Shown here piece after piece: positions 22,651-29,010 of a DNA stretch of 42,934 bases. Within the stretch, counting starts at the first letter, position 1. Each line of letters begins with the position of its first letter. The DNA is from Candidatus Levybacteria bacterium RIFCSPLOWO2_01_FULL_38_21 (GTDB lineage: Bacteria; Patescibacteriota; Microgenomatia; Levybacterales; UBA12049), in assembly GCA_001782475.1 (NCBI GenBank), contig MFOT01000015.1, forward strand, positions 1 through 42,934, written 5' to 3'. Under the pieces are notes generated by a model. That model had not been told where the DNA came from, did not search any database, and saw nothing but the letters and a program-made list of their open reading frames with translations. A program made the translations under genes and the position numbers.

Positions 22651-24309
22651 ATGGTTCAGAACCTTTTTAAGAAAAGCCTCGGAATACTGCTTTCCCGCCA
22701 GACAAATATTTTAACAGCCGCATTTATAATTATGGCAACGATAATACTCTCTCAAGTATTGGGTCTTGTAAAGCAAAGACTTCTGATTTCGATTTTTGGG
22801 GCATCAAACACATTGGGAATTTATCTTGCTTCATCCCGTCTTCCGGATTTTTTATTTCAGCTTATTATTGCCGGAGCACTGTCTTCGGCTTTTATTCCTG
22901 TCTTCTCGGATTATTTAGAAAAAGGAAAAAAAGAAGAAGCTTACAAAGTTGCATCCACTATTCTTATTTTAGGACTTATTGCATTTTCTATACTTGCTGT
23001 TATTCTATTTATTTTTTCTAATACTTTTTCAAGAATCCTTTTTCCGGGTTTTCCTGCGGACCAGTTAAATTTATTGGCAAACTTAATGAGAGTAATAATT
23101 ATTGGAGAACTGCTTTTTATATTTGGGAGTTTTTTTTCAGCAGTTCTCCAATCGTATAATCATTTTTTTATACCCGGATTTGCCGCTGCCTTATATAATT
23201 TTGGAATAATTATTGCGATTATTTTTTTTCATTCTACTTTAGGTATTTATTCTGCAGCTTACGGAGTTATATTGGGAGCTCTTATTTTTGTTGTTGCTCA
23301 GATTCCTCTTATGGCCCGTGTTAAATTTAATTTTAAACCATCTTTATCTTTTAGAGAAAAGGGAGTAATTCAGATACTAAAGCTTATGTGGCCAAGGACA
23401 ATTTCGATTGGTGTTTTTCAGTTGGGGACAGTAATTACTGTTACATTAGTTTCTTTTCTTCAAGATCCTGGAAGAAAATATGTAATTTTTGATATTGCCC
23501 AAAGTCTTTATTTTGCGCCTGTTGTCTTGATTGGCCAAGCTATCGCTCAGGCTGCATTCCCGGTTTTATCAAGAGAAAAAGATAGGCTAGAGTATTTTAA
23601 AGCAACATTTATAACAAGCTTTACCCAGATGCTTTATCTTATACTTCCTTTATCTGTTCTTTTTCTGGTTTTAAGAATTCCAATAGTTAGACTCGTCTAT
23701 GGAGCACCAAAATTGGATTGGGCTGCAACAGTATTAACAGGAAAAACACTCGCCTTTTTTAGTATGTCCATTTTTGCACAATCTCTTATTTATCTTGTTT
23801 CTCGCGGTTTTTATGCACTTCATGACACGAAAATTCCTCTTTTCGTAGGCTCTCTTACAACAATACTTATGATAGGACTTGGTGCTATATTTATTTTTGT
23901 TTATCATTTGGGAGTTGAGAGTTTAGCGATAGCAGTTTCTATAGCAACAATTGTTAATCTTTTAGTTTCCCTCTTTTTACTTGATATTAAAATCGGAGGA
24001 TTTAAGAGATTAGAATTTTTACTTTCCGTATCAAAAATTTTTCTAGCCACCATTTTTACCGGTTTTGCACTTTACATTCCGATAAAACTTTTAGATCAAT
24101 TAGTTTTTGATACAACGCGTACAATAAACCTCTTAGCTTTAACTGGAATCTCTTCCTTTGCCGGGCTTTCTCTTTACCTTTTCTTAACGTGGCTTTTTGA
24201 TGTTAAGGAAGCATCAACATTTCTTCTGATTTTTAGGAAGATAGGAAACTGGAGAGAGATACTTACAAAAAGCGAAGAAACCATCGACGGCACCCATATT
24301 AAAGTTTAA
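22651..24309 (+). CDS. murJ: lipid II flippase MurJ
   Basis: 552 residues from ATG 22651; the frame is open further upstream but that part is antisense to rpsT. About 14 hydrophobic segments, with MurJ/MviN landmarks: SQVLGLVKQRLLISIFGAS, ASSRLPDFLFQLIIAGALSSAFIPVF near the start, IAQAAFPVLSRE in the middle, and ARGFYALHDTK-like SRGFYALHDTKIP. MurJ moves lipid II across the membrane for peptidoglycan synthesis. The stop overlaps the next ATG (TAATG). Confidence 0.93.
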   Translation: MVQNLFKKSLGILLSRQTNILTAAFIIMATIILSQVLGLVKQRLLISIFGASNTLGIYLASSRLPDFLFQLIIAGALSSAFIPVFSDYLEKGKKEEAYKVASTILILGLIAFSILAVILFIFSNTFSRILFPGFPADQLNLLANLMRVIIIGELLFIFGSFFSAVLQSYNHFFIPGFAAALYNFGIIIAIIFFHSTLGIYSAAYGVILGALIFVVAQIPLMARVKFNFKPSLSFREKGVIQILKLMWPRTISIGVFQLGTVITVTLVSFLQDPGRKYVIFDIAQSLYFAPVVLIGQAIAQAAFPVLSREKDRLEYFKATFITSFTQMLYLILPLSVLFLVLRIPIVRLVYGAPKLDWAATVLTGKTLAFFSMSIFAQSLIYLVSRGFYALHDTKIPLFVGSLTTILMIGLGAIFIFVYHLGVESLAIAVSIATIVNLLVSLFLLDIKIGGFKRLEFLLSVSKIFLATIFTGFALYIPIKLLDQLVFDTTRTINLLALTGISSFAGLSLYLFLTWLFDVKEASTFLLIFRKIGNWREILTKSEETIDGTHIKV

Positions 24310-24878
24310 TGACTTTAGCATCAAATAATAAAAAACAAATAAAAGTTGCATTTGTTGGGACGAGTTCTGTTGGAAAGACTAGTCTTCTTTGGGAATATAA
24401 AAAAAGAATGAAAAACAATCCTTCTGTAGCCTTTGTTCATGAGGCAGCAAGAGATTTTTTTAAAGATAATCCAACTGTTAAGAAAAGATTTGCAAAAGAT
24501 GCGTCAGAAAAAATTCAATCGCTGATGTTAAAAAGAGAAAAGAAAGCTCATATGTCCAGAGCAAAAATAATTTTATGTGACAGGTCTGTAATAGATGCCG
24601 TGGTTTATGTAAAATCCACAGGAGATTTAGAAGGAGCAAGGGAATTATTGGAAAAAGTTAGATTTTGGTTACCTACTTATTATAAGTTTTTTCTTTTGGA
24701 TCCTACTGATATTATTTATGAGAAGGACAAGATTCGGCAAGAAGATAAAAAAGTAAGACAAGCCCTTCATAAAGCATTTTTAGAATTTTTTCAAGAATCC
24801 GGAATTCCATACGAATTATTAAGCGGCAATATAAAAGAAAGAAGTGCAAAAGTTGATAAAGTACTTGGTATTATATAG
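24309..24878 (+). CDS. NadR-like AAA ATPase/kinase
   Basis: 189 residues with Walker A GTSSVGKT (17-24), a HEAARDFF block after strand 2, and LCDRSVIDAVVY, all typical of the AAA_28 / NadR kinase-like P-loop group. Members phosphorylate small molecules (NadR: nicotinamide riboside) or are uncharacterised. The ATG overlaps the murJ stop. The last 35 codons exist again as a fragment at 27093-27197, next to lepA. Confidence 0.75.
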   Translation: MTLASNNKKQIKVAFVGTSSVGKTSLLWEYKKRMKNNPSVAFVHEAARDFFKDNPTVKKRFAKDASEKIQSLMLKREKKAHMSRAKIILCDRSVIDAVVYVKSTGDLEGARELLEKVRFWLPTYYKFFLLDPTDIIYEKDKIRQEDKKVRQALHKAFLEFFQESGIPYELLSGNIKERSAKVDKVLGII

Positions 24879-24945
24879 CCTCAATCTCTGATATAATTTC
24901 TCCACCATGGATCAAAGTAAGATTTGGAATTTTGTAATTCAATAA
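24774..24945 (+). repeat. left copy of the ATPase-lepA junction duplication
   Basis: 24774-24826 (53 nt) is identical to 27093-27145. Similarity continues, with divergence and a small gap, through the ATPase end, an extended -10 (TGATATAAT) and the first codons of lepA. Confidence 0.9.
24907..24945 (+). pseudogene. remnant of a lepA start
   Basis: ATG followed by 11 codons (MDQSKIWNFVIQ) and a stop. It aligns with the start of the real lepA (MDQKNIKNFAII), in the same distance and context after a TATAAT box and CTCCAC. The rest of the gene is missing and replaced by the two-gene insert. The stretch 24946-25084 holds no gene; a weak promoter (TTGAAA 25008, TACAAT 25029) may serve the next gene. 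Confidence 0.75.
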
Positions 24946-25084: not shown

Positions 25085-25975
25085 ATGAGAATTGGTATTT
25101 TTTCTTCATTTATCGAGCAAGATGCTTTTACTTTGGTTAATGCAATTTGTTCTAGTGTAATAAATGGCGAGATTCCTAACTCACGCGCCACTTTTATTTT
25201 TTCAAACCGTGAGAGAGGAGAAAGCCCAGTAACAGATGGGATTCTTGATGAAGTCGCAAGTCTGGGTGTTCCGAATGTCCTAGCCTTTTCTTATAAGGAG
25301 TTTTTACCGGAAGAAAAAAAGTTAGCAAGAAAAAAAGAAAGAGAAGAAGATGACAGCTCTTCTATAATTGCCTGGCGTAATAAATACGGCGAGGAAGTTA
25401 TGAGAAGATTGCCGCAGACTGACATAGATCTACTTCTTGGTGATATGACCATCTGGGGCGAGAATATGTGTGAAGGTCGAACCGCGATAAATTTACATCC
25501 TGCTCTTCCTGGTGGACCACAAGGAGGATGGTACAACGTCGTATGGGATCTTATTGAAAATAATGCGAATGAAACGGGAGTTATGATGCATTTCGTGACT
25601 CCGGTTCTTGATCAAGGACATCCGGTTGCATTTTGTCGATTTTCAATAAGAGGTTCGAGGTTTGATCATTTGTGGGAACAATTGCCAGAAAATAAAGGAG
25701 AGTTGCGAGAGTTAATTCAAGAGGGACGATCTCAAAAAGAAAAAGCAACAAACCCTCTATTTAGAGCTATAAGAGAAGAAGGATTTATTCGGGAAATTCC
25801 GCTCGTTATTCAAACAACAAAGGCTTTTGCGCAAGGAGCAGTAAGAGTAGAAGGTGGTTTAGTAATTGACAGGAATGGTCAAGTATTGAAGGAAGGCCAC
25901 GATTTAACTGGGCCAATAGATGAAATAATTAAACCAAAAACTGAAGGGAATTTACCCCAAAAGGGAATGAAATGA
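25085..25975 (+). CDS. formyltransferase-like protein (PurN fold)
   Basis: 296 residues. Residues 115-185 match the core of the glycinamide ribonucleotide formyltransferase fold: LLGDMTIWGE, NLHPALPGG with N136 and H138, and VTPVLDQGHPVAF with D176. These are the Asn, His, Asp residues that catalyse formyl transfer from 10-formyl-tetrahydrofolate. A long insert (about 75-105) and a C-terminal extension (about 190-296) are not standard PurN. The substrate is unknown. It overlaps the next gene by ATGA. The pair lies between the two copies of the ATPase-lepA junction, so it looks acquired. Confidence 0.7.
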   Translation: MRIGIFSSFIEQDAFTLVNAICSSVINGEIPNSRATFIFSNRERGESPVTDGILDEVASLGVPNVLAFSYKEFLPEEKKLARKKEREEDDSSSIIAWRNKYGEEVMRRLPQTDIDLLLGDMTIWGENMCEGRTAINLHPALPGGPQGGWYNVVWDLIENNANETGVMMHFVTPVLDQGHPVAFCRFSIRGSRFDHLWEQLPENKGELRELIQEGRSQKEKATNPLFRAIREEGFIREIPLVIQTTKAFAQGAVRVEGGLVIDRNGQVLKEGHDLTGPIDEIIKPKTEGNLPQKGMK

Positions 25976-27069
25976 TAAAGCCAAAGGTTTTATTCACAGA
26001 TGGAGAAGGACCGATTGTTTTTAAAGATTTAGCTGCCGACATGACCGAAAGAGTTGTCCCTGGTTTTTTTAAGGTATTAAGTTTTTATGATGATTATCTA
26101 GCCGAAATTGGAAGAGAAGGTTATCAAGCGGGAGACACTTTGGCGCTTGTTGTTCCGCATTTTCTTGCTCATGGCGTAACAGATGAAGATATAACAGAAG
26201 AAGCTAAGGATGCTCAAGTTTGCAAAGGTGTTAAAGAATATGTTGATGGATTAAAAAAAGATGGTTGGGAGATTAGAATAATTTCAACTGCTTATAGCCA
26301 AATGTGGGAATTGGTGGGGGATTATTTAGGAATATCAATGGATAAAATTGCTTGTACTGAATTAAATTTAGCATCACTTCGCAAAATGTTCGGTACTCAG
26401 GAGTTTTATGAAAGAGTAAGACAAACGGAAGAAAGAGTTCTTGCCGCTCTTCCGCTTTGGGAAGAAGCAATGGTAGAGGTAAATGATAATGACAGTCCGG
26501 TTGTAAGAGTGTTAGAAAGTGAAAAATTTGCGCATCTTCGCGAAGAACTAGACAATCTTTACTGGAGAGATCTTCCAGAACAAGGTTACAAAACTCTCGA
26601 GGCCGTAATAGTAATGGGAGGTCGAAGAAAAATAGATGCCGCATGGCAATCCGCTCGCGATTTAGGAGTCAAAATATCTGATATTCCGTATGTCGGAGAC
26701 AGTATTACCGATGATGCAATGCATACATATCTAGCCGAAGAAGGAGGTCTACCAATTGCAATTAACGGAAATGCTTATGCACTTAGAAATGCTAAAGTTG
26801 CTGTAGCAACGGAGGATATGCGTAACTTAAGACCCGTTCTTGATGCATGGCAGCAAGGTGGTTTTGAAGGAGTGCAGAATTTTGTGCGAGCATATAGCGA
26901 GATGACTTTTCCAATAGCTAAAGAACGGGCACCAATATCAGAAGTAACAAATCAAGCGTATTACGACTTAATTAATCTAGCAAATCAAGAGGGTTTTGAT
27001 AAAATTCTGGCTACCCATAAAAAATTCCGTATACTTGTTTGTGGTGCGGCGACTGCAAGGCTGGGGTGA
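25972..27069 (+). CDS. HAD-superfamily protein of the COG4030/EhaR type
   Basis: 365 residues. HAD motifs: I FTDGEGP (D10, E12), II IISTAY (S105/T106), III K220 (GGRRK), IV YVGDSITDD (D243, D247). The DGEGP form with YDDYLA and GYQAGDTLAL following strongly recalls the methanogen EhaR family (COG4030), whose motif I reads DCEGP. That family is a predicted phosphohydrolase without a settled substrate. Motif IV is standard, and NGNAYALRNA follows. The last about 55 residues go beyond the HAD core. It is coupled to the formyltransferase-like gene; together they suggest a short pathway on a phosphorylated small molecule (inference). Confidence 0.7.
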   Translation: MIKPKVLFTDGEGPIVFKDLAADMTERVVPGFFKVLSFYDDYLAEIGREGYQAGDTLALVVPHFLAHGVTDEDITEEAKDAQVCKGVKEYVDGLKKDGWEIRIISTAYSQMWELVGDYLGISMDKIACTELNLASLRKMFGTQEFYERVRQTEERVLAALPLWEEAMVEVNDNDSPVVRVLESEKFAHLREELDNLYWRDLPEQGYKTLEAVIVMGGRRKIDAAWQSARDLGVKISDIPYVGDSITDDAMHTYLAEEGGLPIAINGNAYALRNAKVAVATEDMRNLRPVLDAWQQGGFEGVQNFVRAYSEMTFPIAKERAPISEVTNQAYYDLINLANQEGFDKILATHKKFRILVCGAATARLG

Positions 27070-27092
27070 AAAAATGACAAGGTTTCCACAAT

Positions 27093-27197
27093 GCATTTTT
27101 AGAATTTTTTCAAGAATCCGGAATTCCATACGAATTATTAAGCGGGACTCTCAAAGAAAGAATTAAGAGAATCGATAAAGTGCTGAGCATGATATAA
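27093..27197 (+). pseudogene. fragment of the NadR-like ATPase end
   Basis: 35 codons including the stop: AFLEFFQESGIPYELLSG identical to the intact ATPase, then KERIKRIDKVLSMI versus KERSAKVDKVLGII. No start and no Walker A. It ends overlapping the lepA -10 box. It is the right copy of the junction duplication. Confidence 0.85.
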
Positions 27198-27198
27198 T
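27190..27198 (+). promoter_or_regulatory. extended -10 box for lepA
   Basis: TGATATAAT ends 9 nt before the GTG at 27208. The left duplicate keeps the same box before the broken lepA start. Confidence 0.45.
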
Positions 27199-27207
27199 TT
27201 CTCCACA

Positions 27208-29010
27208 GTGGATCAGAAAAATATTAAGAATTTTGCGATTATTGCTCATATTGATCATGGTAAATCAACATTGGCAGACCGTATTATGGAGATATGCGGT
27301 GCCATTCCCGAAAAACACGAGGAGCAAATATTAGATAGCCTAGAGCTTGAACGGGAGCATGGAATAACTATAAAACTTAAGGCAATCCGTCTCAACTATC
27401 AACTATCAACCCCGCAATCGGGGTCAACTATCAACTATCAACTGAATCTTCTTGATACCCCGGGCCATGTGGATTTTTCCTACGAAGTTTCAAGATCCCT
27501 GGCGTCTGTTGAAGGAGCATTGTTAATCGTTGACGCAACACAAGGAATTCAGGCTCAAACCCTTTCCAATTTTAACTTGGCAATTAATGCTAAACTGTCA
27601 ATCATTCCCGTTATCAACAAAATTGACATGCCTTCTGCAAATATTGTCAAGACAACTTCGGAACTTATGGATTTAGGATTTAAAAAAGATGAAATTATAA
27701 AAGTTTCAGCCAAAACCGGAGAAAATGTTGAAAACTTGCTTTCGGAAATTATTGAAAAAATTCCTCCACCCAAAATCATTTCTCAAAAACTTTCCGCTCT
27801 GATTTTTGACTCAAGCCTCGATCCATACAAAGGAGTTATTGCAACAGTAAGACTTTTTGGCGGCTGTCTAAAACTTGGGGAGGAAATCTCTTTTTTAGCA
27901 ACTAAAGCCAAGGGTGCCATTCTGCAAGTTGGTTATTTGACCCCGCAACCGCATTATATACAAGAGTTAAAGGAGGGTGAAATTGGTTTTATTGCCACAA
28001 ACATAAAAGATTTACCACAGGTTAGAGTTGGTGATACGATAACTCATCCAAAAGAAATCGTAGAACCACTACCTGGGTATCGGGAAGCAAGACCTGTTGT
28101 TTTTCTTTCTTTTTTTCCTACCGATTCATCGGATTTCCAAAAAATGAAAGATGCTTTTGAAAAACTTAAACTAAATGATGCGGCTCTTATGTATTCAGCT
28201 GAATCTTCTGCTAGCTTAGGACAGGGTCTTCGTGTCGGTTTCCTTGGTCTTTTGCATGCTCAGATTACTCAGGAAAGACTTGAGCGTGAATATGGTCTTG
28301 ATATTGTAGTAACTTCACCATCTGTTAACTTTATCATCGACGGAAAGACAATTAACAAACCTTCCGAATTTAGTCCAAGCCCACACTCTAAAGTTAGGGA
28401 GCCATATGCCAAGATTACAATTTTTGCTCCCCAAAAATACTACGGACAAATAAACGAACTGATTTATAAAAAGAGGGGAGAAATTAGGCATTTTGAAAAT
28501 ATTGGCGCGTCTTTAAAGATTGAAGCGGTCATTCCGCTTCTTGAAATATTGATCAGTTTTTATGACGAGCTTAAATCTCAAACTTCGGGTTTTGCCTCCT
28601 TTGACTTTGAAGTAATTGGTTACCGCGATGCTAAATTGGTAAAGCTAGATATTTTAGTAAATTACGAGCCGGTTGAGGGGCTTGCTCAAGTAATTCCGGT
28701 TGAAAAAGCTGAGGAATTCGGTAGGAAACTGGTGGAAAAATTAAAGGAGGAAATCCCCCGTCAAAATATTCCGATTGCCATACAGGCTGTTATTAATTTT
28801 TCGAAAATAAAAGGAGGAGTAGGCGGAAAAATTTTGGCACGTGAGACAATTCCAGCATATCGAAAGGACGTTACAGCAAAACTCTATGGCGGCGATATTA
28901 CGCGAAAAACGAAACTTTTGGAAAAACAGAAAAAGGGTAAAAAACGAATGAAGAAATTTGGTCAAATAGAGATACCACAGGAAGCTTTTCTAGCAGTGTT
29001 AAAGATTTAA
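27208..29010 (+). CDS. lepA: elongation factor 4 (LepA)
   Basis: 600 residues from a GTG start. GTPase motifs: AHIDHGKST (13-21), REHGITIK (switch 1), DTPGH (83-87), NKID (G4). The LepA-specific C-terminus is present (REIRHFENIGA-like region, GKILARETIPAYRKDVTAKLYGGD, RKTKLLEKQKKGKKRMK). EF4 acts on the ribosome, back-translocating or aiding initiation under stress. A repeat adds about 12 residues (QLSTPQSGSTIN, 65-76) between switch 1 and DTPGH, just before the conserved NLLDTPGH strand. Confidence 0.95.
   Translation: MDQKNIKNFAIIAHIDHGKSTLADRIMEICGAIPEKHEEQILDSLELEREHGITIKLKAIRLNYQLSTPQSGSTINYQLNLLDTPGHVDFSYEVSRSLASVEGALLIVDATQGIQAQTLSNFNLAINAKLSIIPVINKIDMPSANIVKTTSELMDLGFKKDEIIKVSAKTGENVENLLSEIIEKIPPPKIISQKLSALIFDSSLDPYKGVIATVRLFGGCLKLGEEISFLATKAKGAILQVGYLTPQPHYIQELKEGEIGFIATNIKDLPQVRVGDTITHPKEIVEPLPGYREARPVVFLSFFPTDSSDFQKMKDAFEKLKLNDAALMYSAESSASLGQGLRVGFLGLLHAQITQERLEREYGLDIVVTSPSVNFIIDGKTINKPSEFSPSPHSKVREPYAKITIFAPQKYYGQINELIYKKRGEIRHFENIGASLKIEAVIPLLEILISFYDELKSQTSGFASFDFEVIGYRDAKLVKLDILVNYEPVEGLAQVIPVEKAEEFGRKLVEKLKEEIPRQNIPIAIQAVINFSKIKGGVGGKILARETIPAYRKDVTAKLYGGDITRKTKLLEKQKKGKKRMKKFGQIEIPQEAFLAVLKI
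27393..27438. repeat. (CAACTAT)2 - GC hairpin - (CAACTAT)2 in lepA
   Basis: Two CAACTAT units on each side of the hairpin CCCCG CAAT CGGGG (27410-27423). Same design as the element at 12182-12230: a GC palindrome inside heptamer pairs. Confidence 0.93.

Follow-up and report, generated by a model that had tools for sequence, protein, structure and literature searches.

A probable divergent GAR formyltransferase and a putative AF1437-family phosphohydrolase, both apparently drawn from purine operons of Patescibacteria, in an inserted gene pair of a Levybacteria genome

Two described proteins stand closest to the gene pair considered here. One is PurN, the GAR formyltransferase, represented by the curated family TIGR00639 and by the E. 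coli structure 1cde; PurT is an alternative GAR formyltransferase. The other is AF1437 of Archaeoglobus (PDB 1Y8A), an uncharacterised archaeal protein of the HAD fold. Next to AF1437 stands SerB, phosphoserine phosphatase, which holds the carboxylate of its substrate through an arginine.

How does the present locus compare with these? The window, that is, the whole stretch of 42,934 nucleotides analysed, is the complete contig C15 of a genome of 788 kb (98% complete), here called G000. On its forward strand positions 25085–25975 encode a long, divergent PurN-type formyltransferase of 296 residues (FT), and positions 25972–27069 encode an AF1437/1Y8A-family HAD-fold protein of 365 residues (HAD), a probable phosphatase. 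The two frames share the ATGA of positions 25972–25975, just as the sequence-only reading had placed them, and its view that the proteins are made together holds up in the form of likely co-translation. These are true genes rather than chance open reading frames, since their homologues in G016 (Levybacteria RIFCSPHIGHO2_01_FULL_38_26, 98% complete) are adjacent, lie in the same order and are 53% (FT) and 63% (HAD) identical. The two families are thus neighbours elsewhere, as had been left to a search for co-occurrence, yet G016 is the only other genome in which they adjoin.

Is FT a PurN? Against TIGR00639 it scores 30.1 bits (E 3e-7), far below the cut-off of 150.1 bits, and Pfam and NCBIfam returned nothing but sub-threshold PurN matches. 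The operon-encoded PurN of another genome, G087, also falls under the TIGR00639 cut-off (123.8 bits). Searched as a profile against solved structures, FT matched PurN/GAR transformylases only; hhalign aligned it with E. coli PurN at E 3.5e-8. The best PDB match of an AF2 model built from a shallow alignment (pLDDT 77) was 1cde, the E. coli GAR transformylase (E 1.6e-10, TM 0.79 to the target), and the top matches of the fold search were mostly PurN structures. The model is predicted to have a formyltransferase fold together with its active site. The catalytic Asn136 and His138 (N-L-H, positions 25490–25498, forward strand) and Asp176 (25610–25612, forward strand) are invariant when FT is aligned with ordinary PurNs of Patescibacteria and of E. 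coli, which bears out the Asn-His-Asp set read earlier from the letters; the extra segments remarked upon at the same time are inserts near residues 60–100 and 188–215, together with a C-terminal extension. The alignment also places the N-terminal glycine-rich loop of PurN (GNGSN in E. coli), which is absent from all three FTs; in its place stands S-[ST]-F-[IV], without glycines. The pteridine-side segment is altered as well, GDM-I-G replacing AGFMRI. FT thus falls outside the curated description of PurN, in score and in loop, yet it probably works like PurN.

For HAD the closest match is AF1437, with phmmer at E 1.3e-21 and by profile at E 1.7e-37, the matches spanning both HAD segments. A predicted structure (pLDDT 82), which has the HAD fold and its motifs, placed AF1437 first by a wide margin (E 8e-19, TM 0.82 to the target), the SerB structures coming next. 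Pfam and NCBIfam gave only sub-threshold SerB and HAD matches; against SerB (TIGR00338) the score is 32.1 bits, the cut-off being 144.15. Motif I, DGEGP (positions 25999–26013, forward strand), supplies the nucleophile D10 and has a glutamate, E12, where the second aspartate normally stands. D10, E12, G13 and P14 are invariant in five members, AF1437 reads DWEGP, and the DxDx[TV] motif I of SerB gives way to DxEGP in all HAD members. T106, K220 and GDS-I-TD (D243/D247) complete a motif set that is invariant or nearly so among the homologues, much as had been described. The archaeal assignment, made there under the names EhaR and COG4030, stands in the form ‘AF1437/1Y8A family’; the name COG4030 was not found in the literature searched, nor did literature searches on the HAD family or its purine-operon context yield anything relevant. 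A C-terminal R-x-x-x-R-G motif looks common to HAD and AF1437, but this segment alone scores insignificantly.

What might the two proteins do? It had been held that no pathway brings them together. Going by the genomic context of their relatives, both belong to de novo purine synthesis, and the modification of a sugar-phosphate, which had also been suggested, finds no contextual support. In G016 they occupy a compact operon, purB-purK-purE-purC-purSL-purQ-FT-HAD-AAA_28 kinase-purM, where the gaps around FT and HAD are at most 2 nt or are overlaps of 4 nt. (Gene names in the purine operons are our reading of the translations, with profile or homology support for PurF, PurD, PurP, PurM, PurL, PurC, PurE, PurQ and PurB.) This genome carries a near-full purine operon plus PurD (L008, L056). 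PurF and PurH went undetected in it with E. coli and close-relative queries, as did PurP, so that its pathway is not demonstrably complete. Full-length FTs were found only in G000, G016 and G636; in the last, FT is flanked by purF and purD, in the order purF-FT-purD-purSL-purQ-purP-purP-purB-purE. Ordinary PurN was not detected in any of these three carriers (G636 is only 82% complete), whereas G018 and G087, which have HAD and no FT, possess it; this exclusion is one of three genomes against two. All three FT genomes carry Fmt, partial in G636.

A survey of 374 genomes of the class yielded full-length relatives of HAD in five (G000, G016, G018, G087 and G523); one more was found in G167, elsewhere in the phylum. 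Weak, partial matches to the FT and HAD profiles in many genomes were judged collectively and excluded as non-members, since they cover short stretches only; many lie in far longer frames, of a kind usual for P-type ATPases, or in frames of about 200 residues, as is usual for ordinary PurN. Leaving aside that of the window, three of the four class relatives (G016, G018 and G087) belong to purine operons, and in two cases FT is missing: purQ-HAD-HAD_2-purM in G018 and purN-purD-HAD-PfkB-purSL-purQ-purM in G087. From the ratio of operon to genome length (about 1–1.5% each), we estimate the chance of all three falling there at about 1e-6. The HADs of G167 and G523 lie outside purine clusters and form a separate pair, the sole supported one in a tree of few, highly diverged rows; the G087 protein is only about 23% identical to that of the window. 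Since FT occurs alone in G636, and HAD without FT in G018 and G087, the two are not obligate partners, and they give the impression of genes belonging to purine clusters, not of a dedicated two-enzyme system.

The gene that follows HAD belongs to a different family in each purine operon: PfkB in G087 (L010:10102-11052), resembling ribose-1-phosphate/nucleoside kinases, AAA_28 in G016 (L008:12648-13184) and a second HAD in G018 (L009:10456-11109). A three-gene FT–HAD–kinase module was considered and discarded, since BLASTP found no match between the window's AAA_28 kinase and that of G016.

How did the pair come to lie where it does in G000? Upstream is an AAA_28 small-molecule kinase-like gene (24309–24878, forward strand; Pfam AAA_28 E 2e-25; its G048 homologue is 69% identical), and downstream is lepA (27208–29010, forward strand), with homologues in 16 of 16 relatives searched. 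Local alignment revealed that the junction between these neighbours is present twice on the forward strand. The left copy (24748–24945) comprises the kinase 3' end and a decayed lepA start (ATG at 24907, reading MDQSKIWNFVIQ and then a stop); the right copy (27069–27234) comprises a decayed kinase 3' end and the real lepA start at 27208. The copies are 92% identical over 76 nt and 83% over 46 nt. G048 shares with the window the order murJ-kinase-lepA, but without the pair. With this unoccupied site for comparison, the duplicated kinase-3'/lepA-5' junction is the footprint of an insertion of the FT–HAD block. The congener G001 carries a divergent purM-purN pair in the same murJ–lepA interval (L116:8201-10163, G001:C17), with matches to TIGR00878 (E 2e-26), to TIGR00639 (E 6e-20) and to phage auxiliary-gene PHROGs (E 5e-19 and 8e-6). 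A phage or plasmid origin of the FT–HAD pair itself was considered and rejected: relatives of FT and HAD are absent from IMG/VR, HAD relatives from plasmids and FT relatives from phages, and neither protein matched a PHROG.

The genome that received the block has little of the pathway. PurF, PurD, PurM, PurP, PurE, PurL, PurQ, PurB, PurA and GuaB went undetected in G000, as did any AIRS_C domain, while PurH, PurC, GuaA, GlyA and Fmt are retained. PurC (G000:C24:11746-12645) and PurH (G000:C28:18628-20172) are isolated, the surrounding steps being undetected.

The explanation that we favour, with a probability of about 0.6 as a whole, has four parts. The origin of both genes would lie in the de novo purine operons of Patescibacteria of the Microgenomates type. 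FT would be a divergent GAR formyltransferase which, with N136, H138 and D176 serving as in PurN, takes the formyl group from 10-formyl-THF and passes it to the amine on the glycine part of GAR. HAD would be an AF1437-family phosphohydrolase with D10 as nucleophile, acting on a phosphorylated metabolite of the purine pathway, perhaps a purine 5'-ribonucleotide. The two-gene block would have been inserted between the kinase gene and lepA, duplicating the junction, and in G000 it would now be an orphan, either a remnant or a pair with some partial salvage role. The explanation draws on homology, fold, active-site residues, the operon context of relatives, the insertion footprint and the pathway genes that went undetected.

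Its parts are not equally firm. That FT is a GAR formyltransferase is probable, and the best reading of its context, given that no ordinary PurN accompanies it and that it lies between purF and purD. It is unlikely, by comparison, that FT is a PurN-fold enzyme with some other acceptor (a sugar nucleotide, an amine or another ribonucleotide), placed in purine operons through a shared folate supply. The missing glycine-rich loop, the changed pteridine-side segment and the retention of FT in G000 without PurD or PurM would fit such an enzyme; the flanking purF and purD of G636, the tight operon of G016 and the failure to detect ordinary PurN in either genome speak for GAR. The loss of the loop does imply that FT may bind GAR differently from PurN, probably in how it holds the phosphate. 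As for the window's own copy of the pair, it may be a remnant, whether orphaned or acquired. We would give something over one chance in three to its being a non-functional passenger, brought in by transfer and not yet decayed, which is compatible with the favoured explanation at the level of the families. The junction duplicated on both flanks, the pathway genes mostly undetected in G000 and the higher GC of the pair (39.7% vs 34.5% for the window, lepA and groEL themselves being at 38–42%) are as a passenger would have them; two intact reading frames with every catalytic residue in place, in a genome that still has PurC, PurH, GuaA and GlyA, are less so.

Which phosphate does HAD act upon? 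Its position in the purine operons of three of the four class relatives makes a purine-related substrate likely, and a small phosphate of the pathway is our best guess; that HAD is a purine-pathway phosphatase is nevertheless a tentative reading, a little short of even odds. The missing IMP cyclohydrolase of archaea has been discussed (PMC3261824), but HAD is rejected as that enzyme because it would be unneeded in G018, with a full PurH, and in G087, with a split PurH and two PurP. Indeed, HAD fills no constant gap: G018 has PurF, PurD, PurH and PurN, G087 has PurF and PurD besides, and in G016 neither PurF nor PurH was detected. A phosphatase with a regulatory or salvage role would accordingly fit better than a missing biosynthetic enzyme. 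A dedicated, hitherto unrecognised reaction on a pathway intermediate in Patescibacteria, replacing or bypassing a canonical step, would suit the gaps at PurF and PurH/PurP in G016; it is a long shot. Doubtful too, if slightly less so, is a phosphoserine phosphatase whose serine would pass to GlyA and yield glycine and one-carbon units for purine synthesis. Among curated profiles SerB gives three family members their best match (E 8e-8 to 3e-10), SerB structures are the next fold neighbours after 1Y8A, and GlyA is found in G000, G016 and G018. Set against this, the scores are 32–40 bits where 144 is the cut-off, motif I is DxE and not DxD, and no arginine is invariant anywhere in the five-member alignment.

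FT is a probable replacement for PurN that curated models overlook, so that an intact purine pathway in Patescibacteria may be taken for a broken one. The locus itself presents purine genes inserted at a housekeeping site, in a genome from which the greater part of the pathway has been lost. The uncharacterised HAD family of AF1437, for which a structure has been solved, gains a testable metabolic setting, and the dedicated purine reaction, if true, would be the first function for this archaeal–bacterial family.

How, finally, do the two proteins stand beside their described counterparts? With PurN, FT has in common the fold, the Asn-His-Asp set, an HxxxxxLDxG segment and, in G016 and G636 but not in the window genome, a purine-operon position, no ordinary PurN accompanying it in the genomes examined. 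It differs in its length (about 295 residues vs about 200), its inserts and C-terminal extension, its missing loop and a score of 30 bits against a 150-bit cut-off. HAD shares with AF1437 a full-length fold match, the DxEGP motif I, YxAGxTL and GDS-I-D; they are only about 24% identical, however, HAD is bacterial, and the purine-operon context is known here from bacterial genes alone. With SerB, its second-best fold match, HAD shares the core and the order of the motifs, but HAD is the larger protein, carries DxE in place of DxD and scores far under the cut-off of that family.
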